From positions 310,001 through 374,000 of the forward strand of contig MKTZ01000011.1 of NCBI GenBank assembly GCA_001898505.1: DNA of 64,000 nucleotides, read 5' to 3'. Position numbers and translations under genes: made by a program. Below are positions 55,023 through 64,000 of this stretch, in pieces; position 1 is the stretch's first letter; every line of letters begins with the position of its first letter. Source of the DNA: Sphingobacteriales bacterium 50-39. GTDB lineage: Bacteria > Bacteroidota > Bacteroidia > Chitinophagales > Chitinophagaceae. The notes beneath the pieces were generated by a model, which searched no databases, had not been told where the DNA came from, and saw only the letters and a program-made list of their open reading frames with translations.

Positions 55023-55064
55023 CTCCCCTTGCTGGACTTAAACCAGCGACCCTCTGATTAACAG
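55023..55064 (-). other. Partial tRNA-Asn(GTT) 3' end = island attachment site (attL)
   Basis: Read on the minus strand, these 42 nt give the anticodon loop CTGTTAA (anticodon GTT), the 3' anticodon stem TCAGA, the variable loop, a T arm (GCTGG-TTTAAGT-CCAGC, normal TTCAAGT changed to TTTAAGT), an acceptor 3' strand AAGGGGA and discriminator G, as in tRNA-Asn. The 5' half (acceptor, D arm, 5' anticodon stem TCTGA) is absent: the neighbouring sequence does not pair. This is what remains at the far side of an element that entered the 3' part of the gene. An imperfect 12-bp inverted repeat (55050-55061 and 55077-55088) surrounds the break point and may be the recombinase core site. Confidence 0.75.
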
Positions 55065-55247
55065 GCGCTCTGATCCTTAATCAAAGGGTAGCAGGCTGGA
55101 GCTGATTTAATTTAACTATTTAAATTTCAAACACTTACATCTCTGCGCTAAGTTCGTTTCGACCCCTCAAAAGGTCGTTTGACCTGCTATTTGCAAGCAA
55201 ATTTTCAGCAAAAACGGGGATTTGCAAACAAGCAAAAATCATCAGTT

Positions 55248-56555
55248 ATGTCAGTTAGCGTGTCGATCATCCTGGACAAACGTAGGATGAAGTTAAAAAT
55301 CAAGAAATACCCCGTAAAACTTAGGGTAATCCATCAACGGAAAACCAAACTCTATTGCACGATCTACGACCTGTCAGTAGAGGAGTATGGCAAGTTGAAC
55401 GCCCCGAATCTCGGGGCCGGGTTAAAGACGATTCGGAATAAATTAAAGGATATCGAACGCGATGCGGACAGTGCCATCCGTTCGATGACGGCCTTTCATT
55501 TTGACGATTTCCAAAAGGAATATATTGCCAACAATCCTCTCTTCCATCAACCGGGCGCTAGCCGGAATATCACCGTCCAGGGGAACTATGAATACGATGT
55601 TGCCCAATATTTCCATCGGTTTCCGATCTTCAAAGAGGTAGACATGCCGGCGGGGACCCTTATAGTTACCTTCCGCTCATATATTGATAAGCTGCTCAGG
55701 AGTGATCGGATTGGCACGGCGGTATGTTATCAGACTAGCTATTATGCCTTGGAGAAATTCCGCGGTAATGTCCTCTTTTCAGAGGTCACCGTCGATTACC
55801 TTAATGAATTCGAAAAGTGGATGCTTCGGAAGAACTATTCCAAAACCACCATCGGCATCTATGTCCGGAGTCTTCGATGCATCTTCAACGAGGCCATTGA
55901 AGATGGGATCATCAAGCGCGATAGATACCCATTTGGCCGTCGGCGGTATCAACCCCCAACCTCCCGAAACATCAAGAAGGCACTTACGATAGAGGACGTT
56001 TCGAAGATCTACTACTTCCAACCAACTTGCAAGGAAGAGCAATGGGCCAAGGATTTCTGGTTTTTTTCTTACCTGGGCAATAGTATGAATCCAAAGGACA
56101 TTGCCTGCCGAAAGTATAAGAACGTCGAAGGGGATTATTTCATTTTTGAAAGGGCGAAAACAGAAAAGGCCACCCGAAGCGATCCAAAGCCGATAACCGT
56201 TTTATTACAGAGGACATGCGGGCGATTTTGTACCGGTGGGGAAATAAGGATAAAAGCCCAAACAATTACGTATTCCCTGTGTTAGAGCATGACATCAATG
56301 CCTTAAGGCAATACGAGCTTATCGAGCTATTCATCCAATCGATCAATGACTGGTGCCCGTCATACCTTTTCCACAGTCCTAAAGCGTTCCGGCGTCAGCA
56401 TCGAATTTATCCAGGAGTCGCTTGGGCACACCAACATTCGTACCACTGAAAAATACCTGGACAGCTTCGAACGTGAAGTAAAAAAGGAATTGGTGAGGCG
56501 CCTGACGGCATTTAAAACACAGGCCGATTCAGAAGAATCCAAGCAGGCATTATAA
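55248..56555 (+). pseudogene. Tyrosine recombinase (integrase) of the island, frameshifted
   Basis: This is a Bacteroidota-type phage/ICE integrase with an Arm-binding N-terminus (SVSVSIILDKRRMKLKIKKY), a SAM-like core-binding domain (VCYQTSYYALEKFRGNVLFSEVT) and a catalytic domain. The first frame ends wrongly at 56285. A missing T in the run at 56200-56203 shifts the reading: ITEDMRAILYRWGNKDKSPNN lies in frame +2, and after a second change near 56346 the frame returns with ARHTFSTVLKRSG, GHTNIRTTEKYLD, carrying the catalytic R/H/Y residues. The stretch between QSINDW and ARHTF is also shorter than usual by about 15-20 residues. The recombinase is therefore probably inactive, and the island fixed unless helped. 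It starts 145 bp from the tRNA remnant. Confidence 0.8.
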
Positions 56556-58177: not shown

Positions 58178-58386
58178 TCTCTAATCTGCTATCCAATAAG
58201 AATATGCTTGGAGATGTTTTTTGATTTTCATGGTTCGAAGAGGAAAAACTATGGTAATTATCTTCTTAAGCATCTGGTTTGCAGAGACTTGGCAGGGTGA
58301 TTTTGCTTTCATAAGGTGGTTATCAACGCATTGCCTAACCGTAATTTTAAACCTAACTATTGAAATAAATTTTTAAATTTGTAATC
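58178..58386. other. AT-rich gap with candidate promoter for small gene
   Basis: No gene seen. TAAATTTG at 58374-58381 matches the TAnnTTTG -7 consensus and lies 5 bp before the next ATG, so a leaderless or short-leader start is possible. Confidence 0.35.
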
Positions 58387-59265: not shown

Positions 59266-59571
59266 ATGTACCATTCTCACTCATACCAAGATGAAGCTTT
59301 CGATTTTTTCGTCACCTTCCTAAAGAATGCAATCAAGGGGGATGTAACTTATCAACAGCTTGTACTTCCTGTTATTACCGATGCTCATCTGTTGGCGACA
59401 GGTGAAAAGGATTATTTTACTATAAATAGAGACAGTTACTCTGTGATCACCTTCTTAGTAGAAGCAGATACTCCCTATTTCAGGCAATTGAATACAAATC
59501 ATCTCACGACTGCAGATTACTCACAAATTTTGCAATACGCCAATACACAAAGAGAAGCCTTTCTCGCTTAA
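59266..59571 (+). CDS. Small protein in protease / dCTP-deaminase operon, unknown function
   Basis: This 101-aa soluble protein (SHSYQDEAFDFFVTFLKNAIKGD at the start, TADYSQILQYANTQREAFLA at the end) has no recognised domain. Its stop TAA overlaps the next ATG by one base, so translation is coupled. As the first gene of the unit it could be an inhibitor, sensor or substrate of the downstream peptidase; that is inference. Confidence 0.6.
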   Translation: MYHSHSYQDEAFDFFVTFLKNAIKGDVTYQQLVLPVITDAHLLATGEKDYFTINRDSYSVITFLVEADTPYFRQLNTNHLTTADYSQILQYANTQREAFLA

Positions 59572-60761
59572 TGAGCACGCCTTCCTATAATCTTCTACGA
59601 TTGCATTTAGCCCAGGCTGAATTGGCCTTGGATAAAGCACGTAACAATGCTTACTCCGATAGACGTAAAGAAGAATATCAAAATAAACTAACCGATCTAT
59701 ATACTGCGGTATATCAGGAAGTTAACAAAAAGACTTCATTAACAGAGGCTGATATATATGCATTATACAAAAGGCACATAGATTTTATTTTCAAAAGCCT
59801 AGAATTTTTGGATAGCAGTACCCTCAATCAAATACCATATGAAATTATAGAATGTCTCAATTACGCAATGAATGACTGGCTAGGAAGTAGAGGTGATTAT
59901 ATAATAGTTACTAGCTTAATTAATGATGTAGGCGGATTTAGTTTTGATCCCTCATTGGCCTACAGTGATGCTTTATATGATGAAATCAAAGCAAAGTATG
60001 GGATCGAATTTCCTCAAAGGTTAGTCCAGATAAACTTACCAAGAGCTTTGGCAAGAGACTATTTGGCGTCAGTAGTATTGTATCATGAATTAGGCCATTT
60101 CGTGGACATGAAATTTAAATTTACTGAAAGCCTTACGCGTGACATTTTAAATAATGTCACTGAAGGAAGAATTGCAGGTAAGGACTTAGCTAATTTATTA
60201 ATATATTTTCCCTATTTGAATAGTCATGTTGGCTCAAAAAAAACTATACCTACCCAAAGCCAGCTTTTTATTGTAACCAATTCTCATTTGGCCGAATATT
60301 TTTGTGATCTTTTTGCCAGTCAGTACATTGCTGATTCTTCAAATTACTATCTGCAATACATAACTGAAAATGCAAATTTCTTTTCAACATCCCATCCTTC
60401 TACCGTCAACAGAGTCCAGACGGTAACCGATTTTCTAAGTAAAAGTGATAATATAGTTGTCAAAATTATCAACACCGCTATTTACAAGATTAAGAAGGAA
60501 AATTTGGAAATAAGGAATGAGGCAGTTAAGTCAGATGATTTTTTTAATCTCGTACCTACCATCATTGAAAATGTCGGCCAATTACATGGTATACTCAATA
60601 CGGGTTGGAGAGTCTGGCTTCATCAGCAAGAGCAACTATCCAAAAGTTTGAATGATCAATTTGATAACCCATTACGTTTATATTCAGTAGTTAACAATTT
60701 GTTAGAAAAGTCCATTGGAAACTTTATCACTTTAAACAAATGGAACAAGGTAAAACCGTAG
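59571..60761 (+). CDS. HELGH zinc metallopeptidase-like protein
   Basis: This 396-aa protein has a zincin motif VLYHELGHFVDM (HELGH at 172-176) and a downstream LAEYFCDLFASQY helix (about 248-260) that offers an acidic third ligand. An alpha-helical N-terminus of about 160 residues and a C-terminal helical domain of about 130 residues flank the catalytic centre. It shows no signal peptide or membrane segment, so it is cytosolic. It overlaps the following dCTP-deaminase-like gene by 22 nt. A role as a protease that activates or releases that enzyme is possible but unproven. Confidence 0.7.
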   Translation: MSTPSYNLLRLHLAQAELALDKARNNAYSDRRKEEYQNKLTDLYTAVYQEVNKKTSLTEADIYALYKRHIDFIFKSLEFLDSSTLNQIPYEIIECLNYAMNDWLGSRGDYIIVTSLINDVGGFSFDPSLAYSDALYDEIKAKYGIEFPQRLVQINLPRALARDYLASVVLYHELGHFVDMKFKFTESLTRDILNNVTEGRIAGKDLANLLIYFPYLNSHVGSKKTIPTQSQLFIVTNSHLAEYFCDLFASQYIADSSNYYLQYITENANFFSTSHPSTVNRVQTVTDFLSKSDNIVVKIINTAIYKIKKENLEIRNEAVKSDDFFNLVPTIIENVGQLHGILNTGWRVWLHQQEQLSKSLNDQFDNPLRLYSVVNNLLEKSIGNFITLNKWNKVKP

Positions 60762-61399
60762 ACCCATCTTATGGTACCAGTTGTCTTTTAAAAACAGAGA
60801 TAAAATCTCTAATTGAAAGCAAAAAGCTATATCTACGTCCGCTATTGGATGAGGCTCAAATAGGAGAAATTGGTATTGATTTGAGATTAGGCTATGATTT
60901 TTTAGTCTCGATACAGGGGCGGGAAGCCTTCATAAATGCATCAAAAAATGATTGGATAGACGGAGGTACGCAGCGAAATATTAATCAATTTTTTCAAACG
61001 ACGAGAAGGCAAATAGGTGAAACATTTATTTTGCATCCGCACCAAACCGTCCTGGCGGTAAGCCTTGAGTACGTGAGATTGCCAGATAATTGTTTTATGA
61101 AGCTTTATATGCGTAGTTCGTATTCACGTTTAGGTATTACTATTTCGACAATTGCTCAACCCGGATATTGCGGATGTTTAAGCCTTGAGTTGACTAATAA
61201 TAATAACAACCCAATCAATTTGACGGTTGGCGCTAGAATTATTCAAGGGCTTGTATATCGCTTAGCTACAGATGTGCCATATTTTTACTCCGCGAGAAAA
61301 TATGTGTGCCATGTTAGACCTGAACCCTCAGCTATTACGGCAGACAAAGATCTAATTATCCTTAATGATTTGTGGAAAGAGAATAATAATAGAAAATAA
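60740..61399 (+). CDS. dCTP deaminase-like (Dcd/DUT superfamily) protein
   Basis: This 219-aa protein has the dCTP deaminase/dUTPase core: GIDLRLG (45-51), KLYMRSSYSRLGI (121-133) and AQPGYCGCLSLELTNN (139-154), in which Glu150 aligns with the catalytic glutamate of Dcd. Phage-induced dCTP deaminases are known antiphage effectors that deplete cytosine nucleotides. Here the gene overlaps a metallopeptidase gene, lies in an island, and ends beside a hairpin at 61401-61420. The normal IDPG motif is altered to AQPG, so activity should not be taken for granted. Confidence 0.75.
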   Translation: MEQGKTVDPSYGTSCLLKTEIKSLIESKKLYLRPLLDEAQIGEIGIDLRLGYDFLVSIQGREAFINASKNDWIDGGTQRNINQFFQTTRRQIGETFILHPHQTVLAVSLEYVRLPDNCFMKLYMRSSYSRLGITISTIAQPGYCGCLSLELTNNNNNPINLTVGARIIQGLVYRLATDVPYFYSARKYVCHVRPEPSAITADKDLIILNDLWKENNNRK

Positions 61400-61400
61400 A

Positions 61401-61420
61401 GGCTCCTTTTTAAAGGAGCC
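61401..61420 (-). terminator. Shared hairpin between two convergent operons
   Basis: GGCTCCTTT-TT-AAAGGAGCC is a perfect nine-pair stem. A T-rich run follows on the minus strand (TTTATTTTCTATT), making it a terminator for the leftward ubiquitin-like operon; it also lies right after the rightward dCTP-deaminase gene stop. Confidence 0.7.
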
Positions 61421-61429
61421 ACAAATTAC

Positions 61430-61654
61430 TCAACCTTGTGGAGGAAATGGGTCGTTGCCGTAACTATTAGAATCCCTTATTCGACCGTCTGGACGGTGTA
61501 TCACTACTTCCGTCCCTTGGTTAATGGCAATTTCCCGCGCTCGGTCAATTGCTTCGCGTTGAGTGTCCACAATAACAGTAGCTCTAGAATTGCCAGAACC
61601 CACAACAGCCCAGTTTTCGCCTCTGGGAACAACATGTTGAGATTTTTTTGACAT
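61430..61654 (-). CDS. DUF2188 protein
   Basis: This 74-aa protein reads SQHVVPRGENWAVVGSGN, then DTQREAIDRAREIAINQGTEVVIHRPDG and a final RIRDSNSYGNDPFPPQ, the full pattern of DUF2188. The family is small and soluble, of unknown function, and often found near stress or mobile genes. It is last in a leftward operon, 35 bp behind the DUF6527 gene. The internal ATG at 61654 was preferred to the longer frame. Confidence 0.8.
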   Translation of the reverse strand: MSKKSQHVVPRGENWAVVGSGNSRATVIVDTQREAIDRAREIAINQGTEVVIHRPDGRIRDSNSYGNDPFPPQG

Positions 61655-61689
61655 AAAGTGATTATTGAAAGTGAATAAATGAATGTTAT

Positions 61690-62016
61690 TTATCTGCACC
61701 AGGTGATAATCCCTTTTTTAATAAAGAAATGGCTTTGGCATCCAATAAACCGGTGAACTGAAGGATAAAGCGAAATCCTGTTCTTTTTATCAATATCATA
61801 TCTCCAAAATGGATCATATTCATTGATCAAATTCATATGCAGTTTATTCCCGCATCCACATGGGCATATCATTACAATTTGCCAAGGATATCCCAGGTTT
61901 TCTTCAACGTAAATAACGCGAGGATTTAATTTGTGTGGGAGTTCTGAGACAATATTGTACCTATACCTTTTTTTCGAGTCAAGCCATTTTCTTATTCGGT
62001 TAAGTCGTTTTTTCAT
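61690..62016 (-). CDS. DUF6527 zinc-binding protein, E3-like candidate
   Basis: This 108-aa protein has cysteines and histidine spaced like a metal site: CPCGCG (Cys51, 53, 55), GCQSHF (Cys93, His96) and a terminal TWC (Cys107). It matches DUF6527, a family found beside bacterial ubiquitin-like/E2/E1 genes. A treble-clef or RING-like fold and a role as substrate adaptor or ligase are inferred from the pattern and the neighbourhood. Its start overlaps the E1-JAMM stop by 4 nt (ATGA). Confidence 0.75.
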   Translation of the reverse strand: MKKRLNRIRKWLDSKKRYRYNIVSELPHKLNPRVIYVEENLGYPWQIVMICPCGCGNKLHMNLINEYDPFWRYDIDKKNRISLYPSVHRFIGCQSHFFIKKGIITWCR

Positions 62017-63389
62017 AGAGCACTTAATTCAGGGTTGTTGAGCAAAGGATTGATATCACCTCTTCCCATAAATTTGGAAAAGAACGGACAAGGGTTAGGG
62101 AAAGACTCCGAATAAGAGATACATTCTCCATACATGATTTTGACTGCGTCAATTTCTGTGTTATCTATGGTCCTATATGGATGAATTCTTGCCAGAAACT
62201 CGTTAACCGCCGTTGCCGCTATCTGCATATTCACACTTATTACCGCCGGACTGGATTCATTAACATTTGCTAAATACTGGTTCCTTTCAAATTCCTCTTT
62301 ATTGGTTCTCTTGATCCCTTCGGCACGTAATTTCTCCAAACTATATTGCCCCCGATTTAATAAACTAGAACCACCTGGTTGTATAAAGTGAACCGTGCCA
62401 TAGATCCCATTTATACCACCTTTGCCGTCGGCGTCGAGCTTAACCCCCATATCGATAAGAGGAATTATATAATAGGAGGATATCAAATTAAGTATATGCC
62501 GGCCTTCGGCACCGTCAACGCAACTAAAAAGAATATCGCAGGTAGATAATTCTTTTACTACTGCATATTCGGATATATGTGAATTAAATATTTTAGTACT
62601 TGTCCCAAATCCGACCTTTTGAACCTCCCTTGCCATAACAGATACTTTAGATAGACCTTGACGAGCGTCCTCCAGAGATGAGCCAATAATCCTGTTCAGG
62701 TTTACCACATCGATATGATCAGGATCAACAAGTATTAGTTCACCTACACCTAAGCGTTTCAATTGTTCGATTGTGGGACTCCCGGTTCCGGAGCATCCTA
62801 CAACTCCGATTCTAAGCCTATTTAGGATAGCAACTGTTTGTCTCCCAAACGCTTGTAGGTTTCGAACTTGCAAGGTTTCTTCGAAAGTTTTTGCTTTATC
62901 ATAATACCAGTTTGTGATGTTGCTACCTGCAATAGATATTTGATGAATGACTTCTGGCTGAATATTTTGGTCGAAGATGCGGCCAAATATTCTTTTATCC
63001 GGAAGCATAATGCAACTAGCATGCGGCAAATTATCATCCAGCCAGGATTGGACACTTGTAAACAAGTTAATGTCAGATTCATTATCATATTCTGAAAAAA
63101 ATTCTCCACCACCTGGATGACAATGTATTTTCAAAATTGCATAGCCATATTTTGTGGCTTTTTGTAAAAGAGGGTTGATAATTTCTGTGGGCCAGCGTAC
63201 AAGGTCTTCTTTCCTTTCATAACACATCTCGTAAGGAACTGTTATTACCTCATGGACTGTTAAAATATGATCTTGGTTATTGCCACTTCTGCCGCATAAG
63301 GCAAGGGCGACGGCTTCTTTATAGTCTCCAGGAAATAAATGTTGAATTAATTCCTGGTAGTGTATTCCTGAGATTCTTAATTTGTTCAT
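62013..63389 (-). CDS. JAMM (Mov34/MPN)-E1 (ThiF) fusion protein
   Basis: This 458-aa protein joins an N-terminal JAMM metalloprotease domain to a ThiF/E1 adenylation domain. The JAMM motif is perfect: His89-x-His91-x7-Ser99-x2-Asp102 in IHCHPGGGEFFSEYD, with Glu25 a likely general base. The E1 domain shows the nucleotide loop GCSGTGS (198-204), the acidic VDPD (221-224) and NLNR (230-233). Cys290 in FSCVDGAEGR or cysteines near the C-terminus (NPCPFF) may form the thioester. It should both activate and trim or remove a ubiquitin-like protein. It starts 3 nt after the E2-like gene. Confidence 0.88.
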   Translation of the reverse strand: MNKLRISGIHYQELIQHLFPGDYKEAVALALCGRSGNNQDHILTVHEVITVPYEMCYERKEDLVRWPTEIINPLLQKATKYGYAILKIHCHPGGGEFFSEYDNESDINLFTSVQSWLDDNLPHASCIMLPDKRIFGRIFDQNIQPEVIHQISIAGSNITNWYYDKAKTFEETLQVRNLQAFGRQTVAILNRLRIGVVGCSGTGSPTIEQLKRLGVGELILVDPDHIDVVNLNRIIGSSLEDARQGLSKVSVMAREVQKVGFGTSTKIFNSHISEYAVVKELSTCDILFSCVDGAEGRHILNLISSYYIIPLIDMGVKLDADGKGGINGIYGTVHFIQPGGSSLLNRGQYSLEKLRAEGIKRTNKEEFERNQYLANVNESSPAVISVNMQIAATAVNEFLARIHPYRTIDNTEIDAVKIMYGECISYSESFPNPCPFFSKFMGRGDINPLLNNPELSAL

Positions 63390-63392
63390 GGT

Positions 63393-64000
63393 TTATCGCT
63401 TTAAATCGTTTAAAACCCAATTATCTACAAGGGTTAAATGCGTCTGTACATTATCAACTCCTGGACGCCACTCACCAGGTTCTCTATGTCGAGACCAGCG
63501 CTGAAAGCTTCGTCCATCTATTATTTGGTATGAAAGGGCACTAATGGTTCTGCCATTTTTTTTTTGCAGGGCAGGGAAAAAATAGGCCATATCGATTTCC
63601 GCAGCGGGATAATTGGGGGAAATCATTAATGCTATTTGAACTGTGGATGTATTATACCCCTCCGGTATCGGATAGTCATAAATTAAAAGCCACAACCCCG
63701 CATTGGAAAGGGCCTCCCAACGGAGGCCCAGGTTGTTAAGAAATTCGATGTCCTCTTCAGGCAAGGTAAAGTCCATGCGACTTACTCTGCCGTCCTTTTG
63801 CTCTTTCGGTTGAAGTACAAAACGAACAAGACACTTTTCAGTTAAATCCACAATTTCATCGTGACCAACCTTTTTCGGCTTAGGTTGGTTGCTATAAAAT
63901 TTGTACGCATCCCAGTTTTCGATAGGTTGTTTGTGTTCCAACTCAATCAACTGCTTGCCAGTTATGTAAGGAGAGTTAACAATGTGGTAGTTCTTGTCAA
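63393..64000 (-). CDS. Ubiquitin-like domain - E2-like (Prok-E2 family E) fusion, partial
   Basis: This gene enters from beyond the right edge; 201 codons are visible without a stop up to 64000. The first part (YHIVNSPYITGKQLIELEH, then VDLTEKCLVRFVL) has the pattern of multi-ubiquitin beta-grasp domains. It is followed by an E2/UBC-like domain: LPEEDIEFLNNLGLRWEAL, LLIYDYPIPEGYN, ISPNYPAAEIDMAYFFPAL, and the family ending FQRWSRHREPGEWRPGVDNVQTHL. Its only cysteine in view lies in the ubiquitin-like part; the E2-like core has none, so classical thioester catalysis is not expected. A TTG at 63950 is an internal codon rather than the start. It is the first visible gene of the E1-JAMM/DUF6527/DUF2188 operon. 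Confidence 0.78.
   Translation of the reverse strand, partial: DKNYHIVNSPYITGKQLIELEHKQPIENWDAYKFYSNQPKPKKVGHDEIVDLTEKCLVRFVLQPKEQKDGRVSRMDFTLPEEDIEFLNNLGLRWEALSNAGLWLLIYDYPIPEGYNTSTVQIALMISPNYPAAEIDMAYFFPALQKKNGRTISALSYQIIDGRSFQRWSRHREPGEWRPGVDNVQTHLTLVDNWVLNDLKR

Follow-up and report, generated by a model that had tools for sequence, protein, structure and literature searches.

The four leftward genes at the right end of the window (the whole stretch of 64,000 nucleotides analysed here) are, judged by sequence, a Bub (bacterial ubiquitination-like) operon, an already named type for which structures of Citrobacter BubA, BubB and BubCD have been solved (PDB 9ea4, 9ea5, 9ea8, 9eae, 9eav). We consider it probable that they form a damage-inducible protein-conjugation operon on an integrative island. 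All four tightly packed ORFs of the preliminary description were confirmed; its account of a generic E1/E2/JAMM cassette was sound as to a self-contained set and incomplete in that the set belongs to this named family. The operon adds to the Bub systems one with a fused BubA-BubB, CapH/CapP control, an extra gene, a mobile island and a Bacteroidota host.

Features of the Bub operon and of the island that carries it
Feature	Position	Strand	Basis or remark
24-bp exact direct repeat, left copy	55041..55064		island end
Island integrase, now two ORFs	55179..56555	+	
Integrase, N-terminal SAM-like part	55179-56285	+	
Integrase, catalytic part	56346-56555	+	
Terminator-like hairpin and T-run	61401..61420	-	directly 3' of DUF2188, end of operon
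DUF2188 protein, PADLOC candidate PDC-S16	61430..61654	-	Pfam 3.4e-24; PDC-S16 9.7e-37
DUF6527 protein, Cys cluster and Ser86/His96	61690..62016	-	Pfam 1.8e-21
BubCD, JAMM peptidase fused to ThiF-type E1	62013..63389	-	Pfam, PDB match, JAMM residues
BubA-BubB, three Ubl repeats and Ser-type E2	63393..64595 (L002:3393-4595)	-	Pfam, PDB matches
CapH-like HTH	64998-65363	+	HTH_3 8.6e-12 (Pfam); capH 1.2e-9
CapP-like IrrE peptidase	65367-65888	+	Peptidase_M78 1e-21 (Pfam); capP 3.3e-37
tRNA-Asn	66035-66109	-	closes right flank; same contig, outside window
24-bp exact direct repeat, right copy	66054-66077		island end, inside tRNA-Asn

Both fusions proposed from the ORFs alone were recovered by Pfam. 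The JAMM-E1 protein matched ThiF (5.2e-26) and Prok-JAB (2e-5; 24.9 bits, just under the cut-off of 25), and aligned with the solved Citrobacter BubCD over residues 12-413 (1.4e-70), as expected of a homologous JAMM-ThiF fusion. Its JAMM residues are intact: E25, H89 and H91 were present in all 93 alignment rows, S99 and D102 in 92. The Ubl-E2 gene crosses the window edge at 64000, and its full-length product has 400 aa. Multi_ubiq was found in three stretches of this protein, followed by Prok-E2_E (2.2e-34); in the PDB it matched Citrobacter BubB at 1e-25, Citrobacter BubA at only 0.004 and, weakly, the Ubl-BilA structure 8u38 (6.5e-5). G269, the motif Gly behind the Ubl repeats, corresponds exactly to the C-terminal end of 27 of 41 stand-alone Ubls, the other 14 having a tail beyond the motif Gly, and a loose pattern for the motif was found in 49/51 single-ORF rows. 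The E2 is homologous to BubB and has no catalytic Cys: across 89 rows, which represent 89 of the 93 loci (L038, L040, L041 and L042 fall outside the count), Ser368 and the motif W-S-R-H were invariant and no column held Cys in at least 20% of rows.

Two related systems were set apart. CBASS type II carries Cap2/Cap3, with E1, E2 and JAMM parts, and resembles the present locus also in CapH/CapP control. The window's island differs from it in having Ubl repeats and no CD-NTase, and CBASS was ruled out on the latter ground: Pfam found none across 14 island ORFs (a 51-aa ORF at 58221 was not among these), in line with the nucleotidyltransferase-free island noted before. Bil (BilABCD) likewise combines Ubl, E2, E1 and JAMM proteins; its description gives a Cys E2 (Cys138, CEHH) and separate BilC and BilD proteins (PMC11354881). 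The operon in the window has a Ser E2 and a JAMM-E1 fusion instead, and Bil was rejected on the missing Cys column. The closest likeness is to Bub of Citrobacter, which shares the multi-Ubl protein, the Ser-type E2, the JAMM-E1 fusion and a damage-type regulator. A Citrobacter koseri plasmid carries the same gene set, with ATP-binding and DNA-binding genes, a fused multiubiquitin-E2, ThiF and DUF6527; there too BubA and BubB form one chain and DUF6527 stands behind the JAMM-E1 gene. The C. koseri regulator genes look like CapK/CapS, whereas those in the window's island are CapH/CapP, and the window's operon, in a Bacteroidota host, ends in an additional DUF2188 gene.

The preliminary description had cast the DUF6527 protein as a possible ligase or adaptor. 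This now seems less likely, and from sequence we predict a Ubl protease or deconjugase more than a ligase, because DUF6527 occurs in operons with and without a JAMM domain and has a conserved Ser and His. The gene order is indeed kept elsewhere: of 93 distinct loci, 87 have a DUF6527 gene on the BubCD strand whose start lies 0.9-1.8 kb downstream of that of BubCD. At 6 of 13 DUF6527 places the neighbour was a 383-393 aa ThiF-type gene (Pfam check on L182 only), and an operon of Tritonibacter (L208) comprises Multi_ubiq, DUF6791-ThiF and DUF6527, with no E2 annotated. Such JAMM-less operons share Multi_ubiq, a ThiF E1 and DUF6527 with the window's operon, and in Tritonibacter also an HTH-ImmA/IrrE pair and DUF2188; they differ from it in that no E2 or JAMM was recognised and that the E1 starts with DUF6791 (two E1s tested). 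If the Ubl is removed in these operons, another protease is needed, and the presence of DUF6527 beside an E1 without JAMM is why we read it as that protease. Alternatively, DUF6527 could bind zinc and serve, like an E3, as an adaptor between the charged E2 and targets, the JAMM domain alone maturing and removing the Ubl. The small size of the protein, its position next to the E1 gene in the 87 loci and the conservation of C51/C53/C55/C93 (85-87 of 87 rows), which resemble a metal site, would suit such an adaptor; we nevertheless regard it as unlikely, given the retention of DUF6527 beside JAMM-less E1 genes and the conservation of Ser86 (86/87 rows) and His96 (85/87). For type II Bub operons, Ye et al. 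reportedly described a family of Ser-His proteases that may well be DUF6527. The operon bears directly on which protease matures and removes the Ubl when JAMM and DUF6527 coexist, and on the role of DUF6527 where JAMM is absent. The predicted structure of DUF6527 was confident (mean pLDDT 92.7), with no convincing fold match by Foldseek or VIA-align, and a PDB sequence-profile search gave no relative (best E 1.3). For phage-borne DUF6527, a putative counter-defence, phages yielded two weak matches, and none with a prophage-type query.

The island between the 24-bp repeats measures 11.0 kb, with a G+C content of 0.396 against 0.477 and 0.478 outside. Its right flank had been pointed out earlier as a place for a CD-NTase or toxin; reading on in the same contig gave neither, but a CapH/CapP-type pair and then the tRNA-Asn. 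The pair, an HTH repressor gene beside an IrrE/M78 peptidase gene, lies outside the window and is divergent to the Bub operon. According to PMC13373217, CapP becomes active on single-stranded DNA and then cleaves CapH; this control is reported for CBASS, and CapW or CapH+CapP accompany 219 of 544 Bub operons. A promoter-region palindrome (L002:4804-4832) has look-alikes in some close relatives. It was dropped as an operator: in 13 of 15 regions tested the best score was not above the best shuffle, and the two regions above it (L027, L028) held other sequences. Terminator-like sites numbered 10 in the region against 3.6 expected; the function of the hairpin behind the operon is putative.

By analogy, CapH would repress the operon until CapP, activated by ssDNA, cuts it. 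Cleavage of the three-Ubl precursor after G269, by either DUF6527 or the JAMM half of BubCD, would then leave a Ubl with C-terminal Gly. The ThiF half would adenylate this Gly and pass the Ubl on to the E2, where Ser368 would hold it in an oxyester rather than a thioester bond. Ye et al. 2026 reportedly found that Bub Ubl transfer runs through oxyesters, and the sequence of the window's E2 agrees with this. The Ubl would be placed on a putative target, from which JAMM and/or DUF6527 may take it off; DUF2188 would probably act on a step common to immune operons (sensing, restraint, timing) and not on Ubl chemistry. The putative role of the whole is defence, against phages or against stress in general. 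As an antiphage function of Bub is itself putative, there is some room for a housekeeping cassette, one whose ThiF/MoeB-like sulfur carrier chemistry would modify or sulphurate a protein or a metabolite of the host. The E1 half does match ThiF and MoeB models, all below cut-offs. We consider housekeeping very improbable, however, in view of the E2 and JAMM, the immune-type regulator, the mobile island and a patchy spread, with Bub in 11/244 family genomes and 9/395 phylum genomes (own genome included in both) and 118 plasmid records having a match over at least 80% of BubCD. The source genome (Bacteroidota, probably Chitinophagaceae) has two Bub operons.

DUF2188, the last gene here, had been counted in the self-contained set. 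It is not core, being a direct neighbour of DUF6527 in 1/93 Bub loci, and looks instead like an accessory common to several unrelated immune operons, a pattern that is the new part of our finding and was set against a small control only. L089 has it 1.2 kb downstream of DUF6527, and L118 has it on the opposite strand, several kb upstream. Relatives adjoin CBASS, Pycsar, Iet, TIR, type I R-M/SAVED and two other Bub operons, often standing behind CapH/CapP. Evenly divided, we put forward DUF2188 as a portable general accessory of damage-controlled immunity (Bub, CBASS, Pycsar, TIR, Iet, restriction/SAVED), placed in plasmids usually at the promoter by CapH/CapP-type switches and acting on a common step such as sensing, restraint or timing. 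The rival, that DUF2188 is a passenger which landed between DUF6527 and the terminator, is a serious one, though we lean slightly against it. Its absence as direct neighbour from 92/93 Bub loci, plasmid copies with no recognised immune neighbour and 29 phage records fit a passenger. Against this, a recognised immune gene lay within ~2.1 kb in 12/23 plasmid regions and 8/13 family places (L150 was dropped, as its PADLOC match RTasRmuC may be ordinary RmuC), two Bub operons of other types start with DUF2188, and here it shares the operon's strand, the 35-base gap to DUF6527 being free of terminator-like sites. Were it a general accessory, Bub and CBASS would share a layer of control that is as yet unstudied.

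YegP (DUF1508), which PMC13373217 places after CapK/CapS in 57 cases, showed no profile similarity to DUF2188 by hhalign (probability 0.1%, E. coli YegP as single sequence) and was dropped as a relative. For the fold of DUF2188, for which an AcrIF5-like one was weighed as a candidate, Foldseek gave a best E of 0.44, and a PDB profile search only the repeat protein 8erw (0.0047). Nothing was found in the literature under the names DUF6527 or PDC-S16, and the seven DUF2188 papers had no defence theme in titles or abstract starts; a role for DUF6527 or DUF2188 may be given in Ye 2026, Gong 2025, Chambers 2024 or Lau 2022. The DUF2188 start is most likely ATG 61654, not GTG 61699: aligned homologues (first start codons taken, one shortened by hand) start with that Met or only a few residues away from it, except the longer L154.

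All four leftward ORFs named in the preliminary description are present in the window (G000:C11:310001-374000; the genome is 7.9 Mb, assembled in 27 contigs), and Pfam recovered the Ubl, E2, ThiF, JAMM-type, DUF6527 and DUF2188 domains ascribed to them. The first gene, cut by the window edge, is complete on the same contig (63393-64595, 400 aa) and encodes three Multi_ubiq stretches followed by Prok-E2_E. The second encodes ThiF with Prok-JAB just below threshold, the third DUF6527 and the fourth DUF2188, whose most likely start is the ATG at 61654, 35 bases after the DUF6527 stop. In phmmer searches of the PDB, the JAMM-E1 protein matched Citrobacter BubCD over residues 12-413 (1.4e-70), and the Ubl-E2 protein matched Citrobacter BubB at 1e-25 and BubA at 0.004. 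These matches, together with the descriptions in PMC13373217, indicate that this is a bacterial ubiquitination-like (Bub) operon adjoining a CapH/CapP-type pair (HTH repressor and IrrE protease). The same gene set of fused Ubl-E2, ThiF and DUF6527 occurs on a Citrobacter koseri plasmid, preceded there by an ATP-binding and a DNA-binding gene; by analogy, this arrangement would fit the CapK+CapS layout described in PMC13373217. According to that paper, CapW or CapH+CapP accompanies 219 of 544 Bub operons, and phage protection by Bub has not been shown to date. We regard the window operon as a well-supported new Bub example that carries an informative accessory gene.

The right flank, which had been proposed as the place to look for a CD-NTase or toxin, holds the HTH and IrrE peptidase genes and, next to them, tRNA-Asn. 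Among PADLOC models, the peptidase matched capP best (3.3e-37); for the HTH gene, capH (1.2e-9) ranked second, behind a different HTH model. Because a 24-bp repeat bounds the operon and G+C drops between its copies (0.396 vs 0.477 and 0.478 outside), we conclude that an 11.0-kb island carries the operon as cargo. The island integrase is broken into two ORFs. A Pfam scan of 14 island ORFs found no CD-NTase or known toxin, in agreement with the initial impression that no nucleotidyltransferase or effector is visible. The operon would be induced by damage and may serve in defence. Further cargo comprises a HEAT-repeat protein and a rightward trio adjoining the operon (59266-61399), made up of a 101-aa protein of unknown kind, a weakly matched M48-like protein (0.0013) and a dCTP deaminase (2.1e-27). 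dCTP deaminases are able to act in phage defence, and the trio may be a second defence unit of the same island. A palindrome in the divergent promoter (L002:4804-4832, L002 being a stretch of the window's contig with L002:3393 at window 63393), with look-alikes in some close relatives, is an operator candidate whose score for the window is not above that of shuffles. Farther along, at L002:16090-17600, a partial tRNA-like sequence, matching the tRNA-Asn stretch at 79%, adjoins an ORF resembling, by eye, another tyrosine recombinase; this is perhaps another neighbouring island.

Features flanking the operon, and immune neighbours of DUF2188 relatives in genomes of the family
Feature	Position	Remark
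HTH gene	L002:4998-5363	divergent from operon, ~400 bases away
IrrE (M78) peptidase gene	L002:5367-5888	divergent from operon, beside HTH gene
24-bp exact repeat	55041-55064 and 66054-66077	second copy within tRNA-Asn; further similarity left of repeat
Terminator-like hairpin	61420-61401	directly 3' of DUF2188 gene
DUF2188 locus L143	L143:4291-9733	DUF2188 between AbiLi/AriA-like gene and 748-aa E1-E2-JAB protein (PADLOC)
DUF2188 locus L144		IetS (PADLOC)
DUF2188 locus L147		CBASS cyclase (PADLOC)
DUF2188 locus L148		PycC (PADLOC)
DUF2188 locus L149		CBASS cyclase with CapH, CapP and Cap15-type effector (PADLOC)
DUF2188 locus L151		type I R-M with SAVED-HNH protein (PADLOC)
DUF2188 loci L152, L153		layout as L151; one of the two from L151's genome

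Relatives were collected by keeping the best 80 of 224 from one scan of genome contigs and adding 19 stretches from further genomes plus a single stretch of the window's own contig; the resulting 100 loci, less seven duplicates, left 93 distinct loci, which were picked by similarity to the window's BubCD and are not an even sample of all Bub operons. The gene order, suggested earlier as a point to check in other genomes, was kept: Ubl(-E2), BubCD, DUF6527 is general, with DUF6527 directly 3' of BubCD in 87/93 (it is missing from L034, L037, L038, L040, L041 and L042). Judged by record titles, the best 80 of 224 relatives include Bacteroidota, Acidobacteria, Proteobacteria, Planctomycetes, Verrucomicrobia and cyanobacteria. 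BubCD matches at 1e-20 occurred in 11/244 family genomes and 9/395 phylum-sample genomes, the window's own genome being counted in both. That genome has a second Bub operon (G000:C25:310951-312345, BubCD 45% identical), whose region (L032, G000:C25:303451-319845) contains a single-ORF Ubl-E2, BubCD, DUF6527 and a CapP-type gene in divergent orientation; a further CapH/CapP pair begins there 6.4 kb behind the BubCD start. Four Bub loci (L072, L100, L115, L117) have a divergent, very long ORF of 1139-1256 aa that matches the CapP profile, possibly a large regulator fusion.

JAMM residues E25, H89 and H91 were found in 93/93 rows, and S99 and D102 in 92/93. Beyond residue 316 of the E1, Cys reached at most 44/93 rows of any column. 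The E2 motif W367-S368-R369-H370 was present in 89/89 rows (a count that excludes L038, L040, L041 and L042, which lack a clear E2), and Cys stayed below 20% of rows in every column of this alignment. Where Ubl and E2 are separate genes, the Ubl C-terminus is the Gly of a motif in 27/41 loci (EG in 26, PG in 1), and the remaining 14 have a tail beyond it; in fused proteins, 49/51 single-ORF rows carry this motif between the two parts, under a loose pattern that misses L040 and L041. The motif Gly, G269 in the window, probably marks where a fused precursor has to be cut, and the window fusion would be cleaved behind it. Judged from sequence, all this conservation agrees with the oxyester intermediates that Ye et al. 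2026 reportedly describe, and Ubl transfer may be Ser-linked.

DUF2188 adjoins a Bub operon in only one of the 93 distinct loci, that of the window, and the family model found no further copy in the window's genome. PADLOC lists the family as candidate PDC-S16, a name for which our literature search found no paper. Across the family, DUF2188 occurs at 14 places in 12/195 genomes; a PADLOC immune gene lies within ~2.1 kb in 8 of the 13 places outside the window's genome (table), among the two nearest genes on a side in seven of these eight. In the case set, three members matched specificity subunits. L150 was not counted, since the one candidate there is an RmuC-type gene (PADLOC RTasRmuC) and may be an ordinary RmuC. 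At the limits used, no immune gene appeared at L145, L146, L154 and L155. Twenty-three plasmid regions, picked from hit lists by rank and variety rather than at random and read by record annotation, had immune neighbours in 12: DUF2188 is followed by CBASS genes in six, by Bub in two (one in Rhizobium phaseoli, with E2, and one in Tritonibacter, without JAMM) and by TIR in two, and in two an AAA ATPase and an S8 peptidase, by analogy an Iet-like pair, are divergent from it. A CapP-profile match lay within 2.6 kb in 16/23 (one weak, 8.5e-5), and CapH or CapP was near DUF2188 in 4/13 family places. No CapH or CapP match was found in 13 control stretches picked arbitrarily within six of the same genomes; in one of them the BubCD profile gave a ThiF-type match (8.8e-22). 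At 1e-15, the 49 case proteins matched 153 PADLOC families and the 44 control proteins 36, one protein each, a count of families rather than of matching control proteins in a control that is small and unmatched to the plasmids. The 25 listed among these 36 control families are helicase, methylase or ATPase families (DpdF, PsyrT, MTase_II, IetA, HEC-06, BrxH and others); since IetA-type matches occur there, a lone AAA match means little. Against this small control, DUF2188 relatives show a pattern of immune neighbours, and DUF2188 would have a role in the operon.

Across 87 DUF6527 rows, C51, P52 and C55 were invariant, C53 was found in 85, S86 and C93 in 86, H96 in 85 and S95 in 79. The predicted structure was confident (mean pLDDT 92.7), and comparison with solved folds gave no convincing match. 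A family search of 296 phylum genomes found DUF6527 at 13 places in 10 genomes. Five, including two in the window's genome, adjoin a JAMM-type BubCD, and two others have, by eye, prophage-like surroundings. The other six lie next to a gene for a ThiF-type protein of 383-393 aa that is preceded by a Ubl-type gene (recognised by the Ubl-E2 profile in four, by eye in two); at one of these, L184, the DUF6527 gene was found by Pfam search and not listed by our own profile. Another, L182, and the Tritonibacter plasmid region L208 encode Multi_ubiq, DUF6791-ThiF (Pfam, for these two E1s) and DUF6527, and Pfam found no Prok-JAB in either operon. Since DUF6527 is shared by operons that have E2 and JAMM and by operons that lack them, it should act on the Ubl itself. 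The preliminary description had suggested a ligase or adaptor; an adaptor stays as the main rival, and the simplest reading of the sequences is instead that DUF6527 may act as a protease. Relatives of DUF6527 (L187:5905-6210, L188:5587-5937) lie amid genes that by eye look phage-structural, and Burkholderia phage FLC9 has a weak match (1e-4); PHROG 15183 also matches. Such phage-borne relatives could serve counter-defence.
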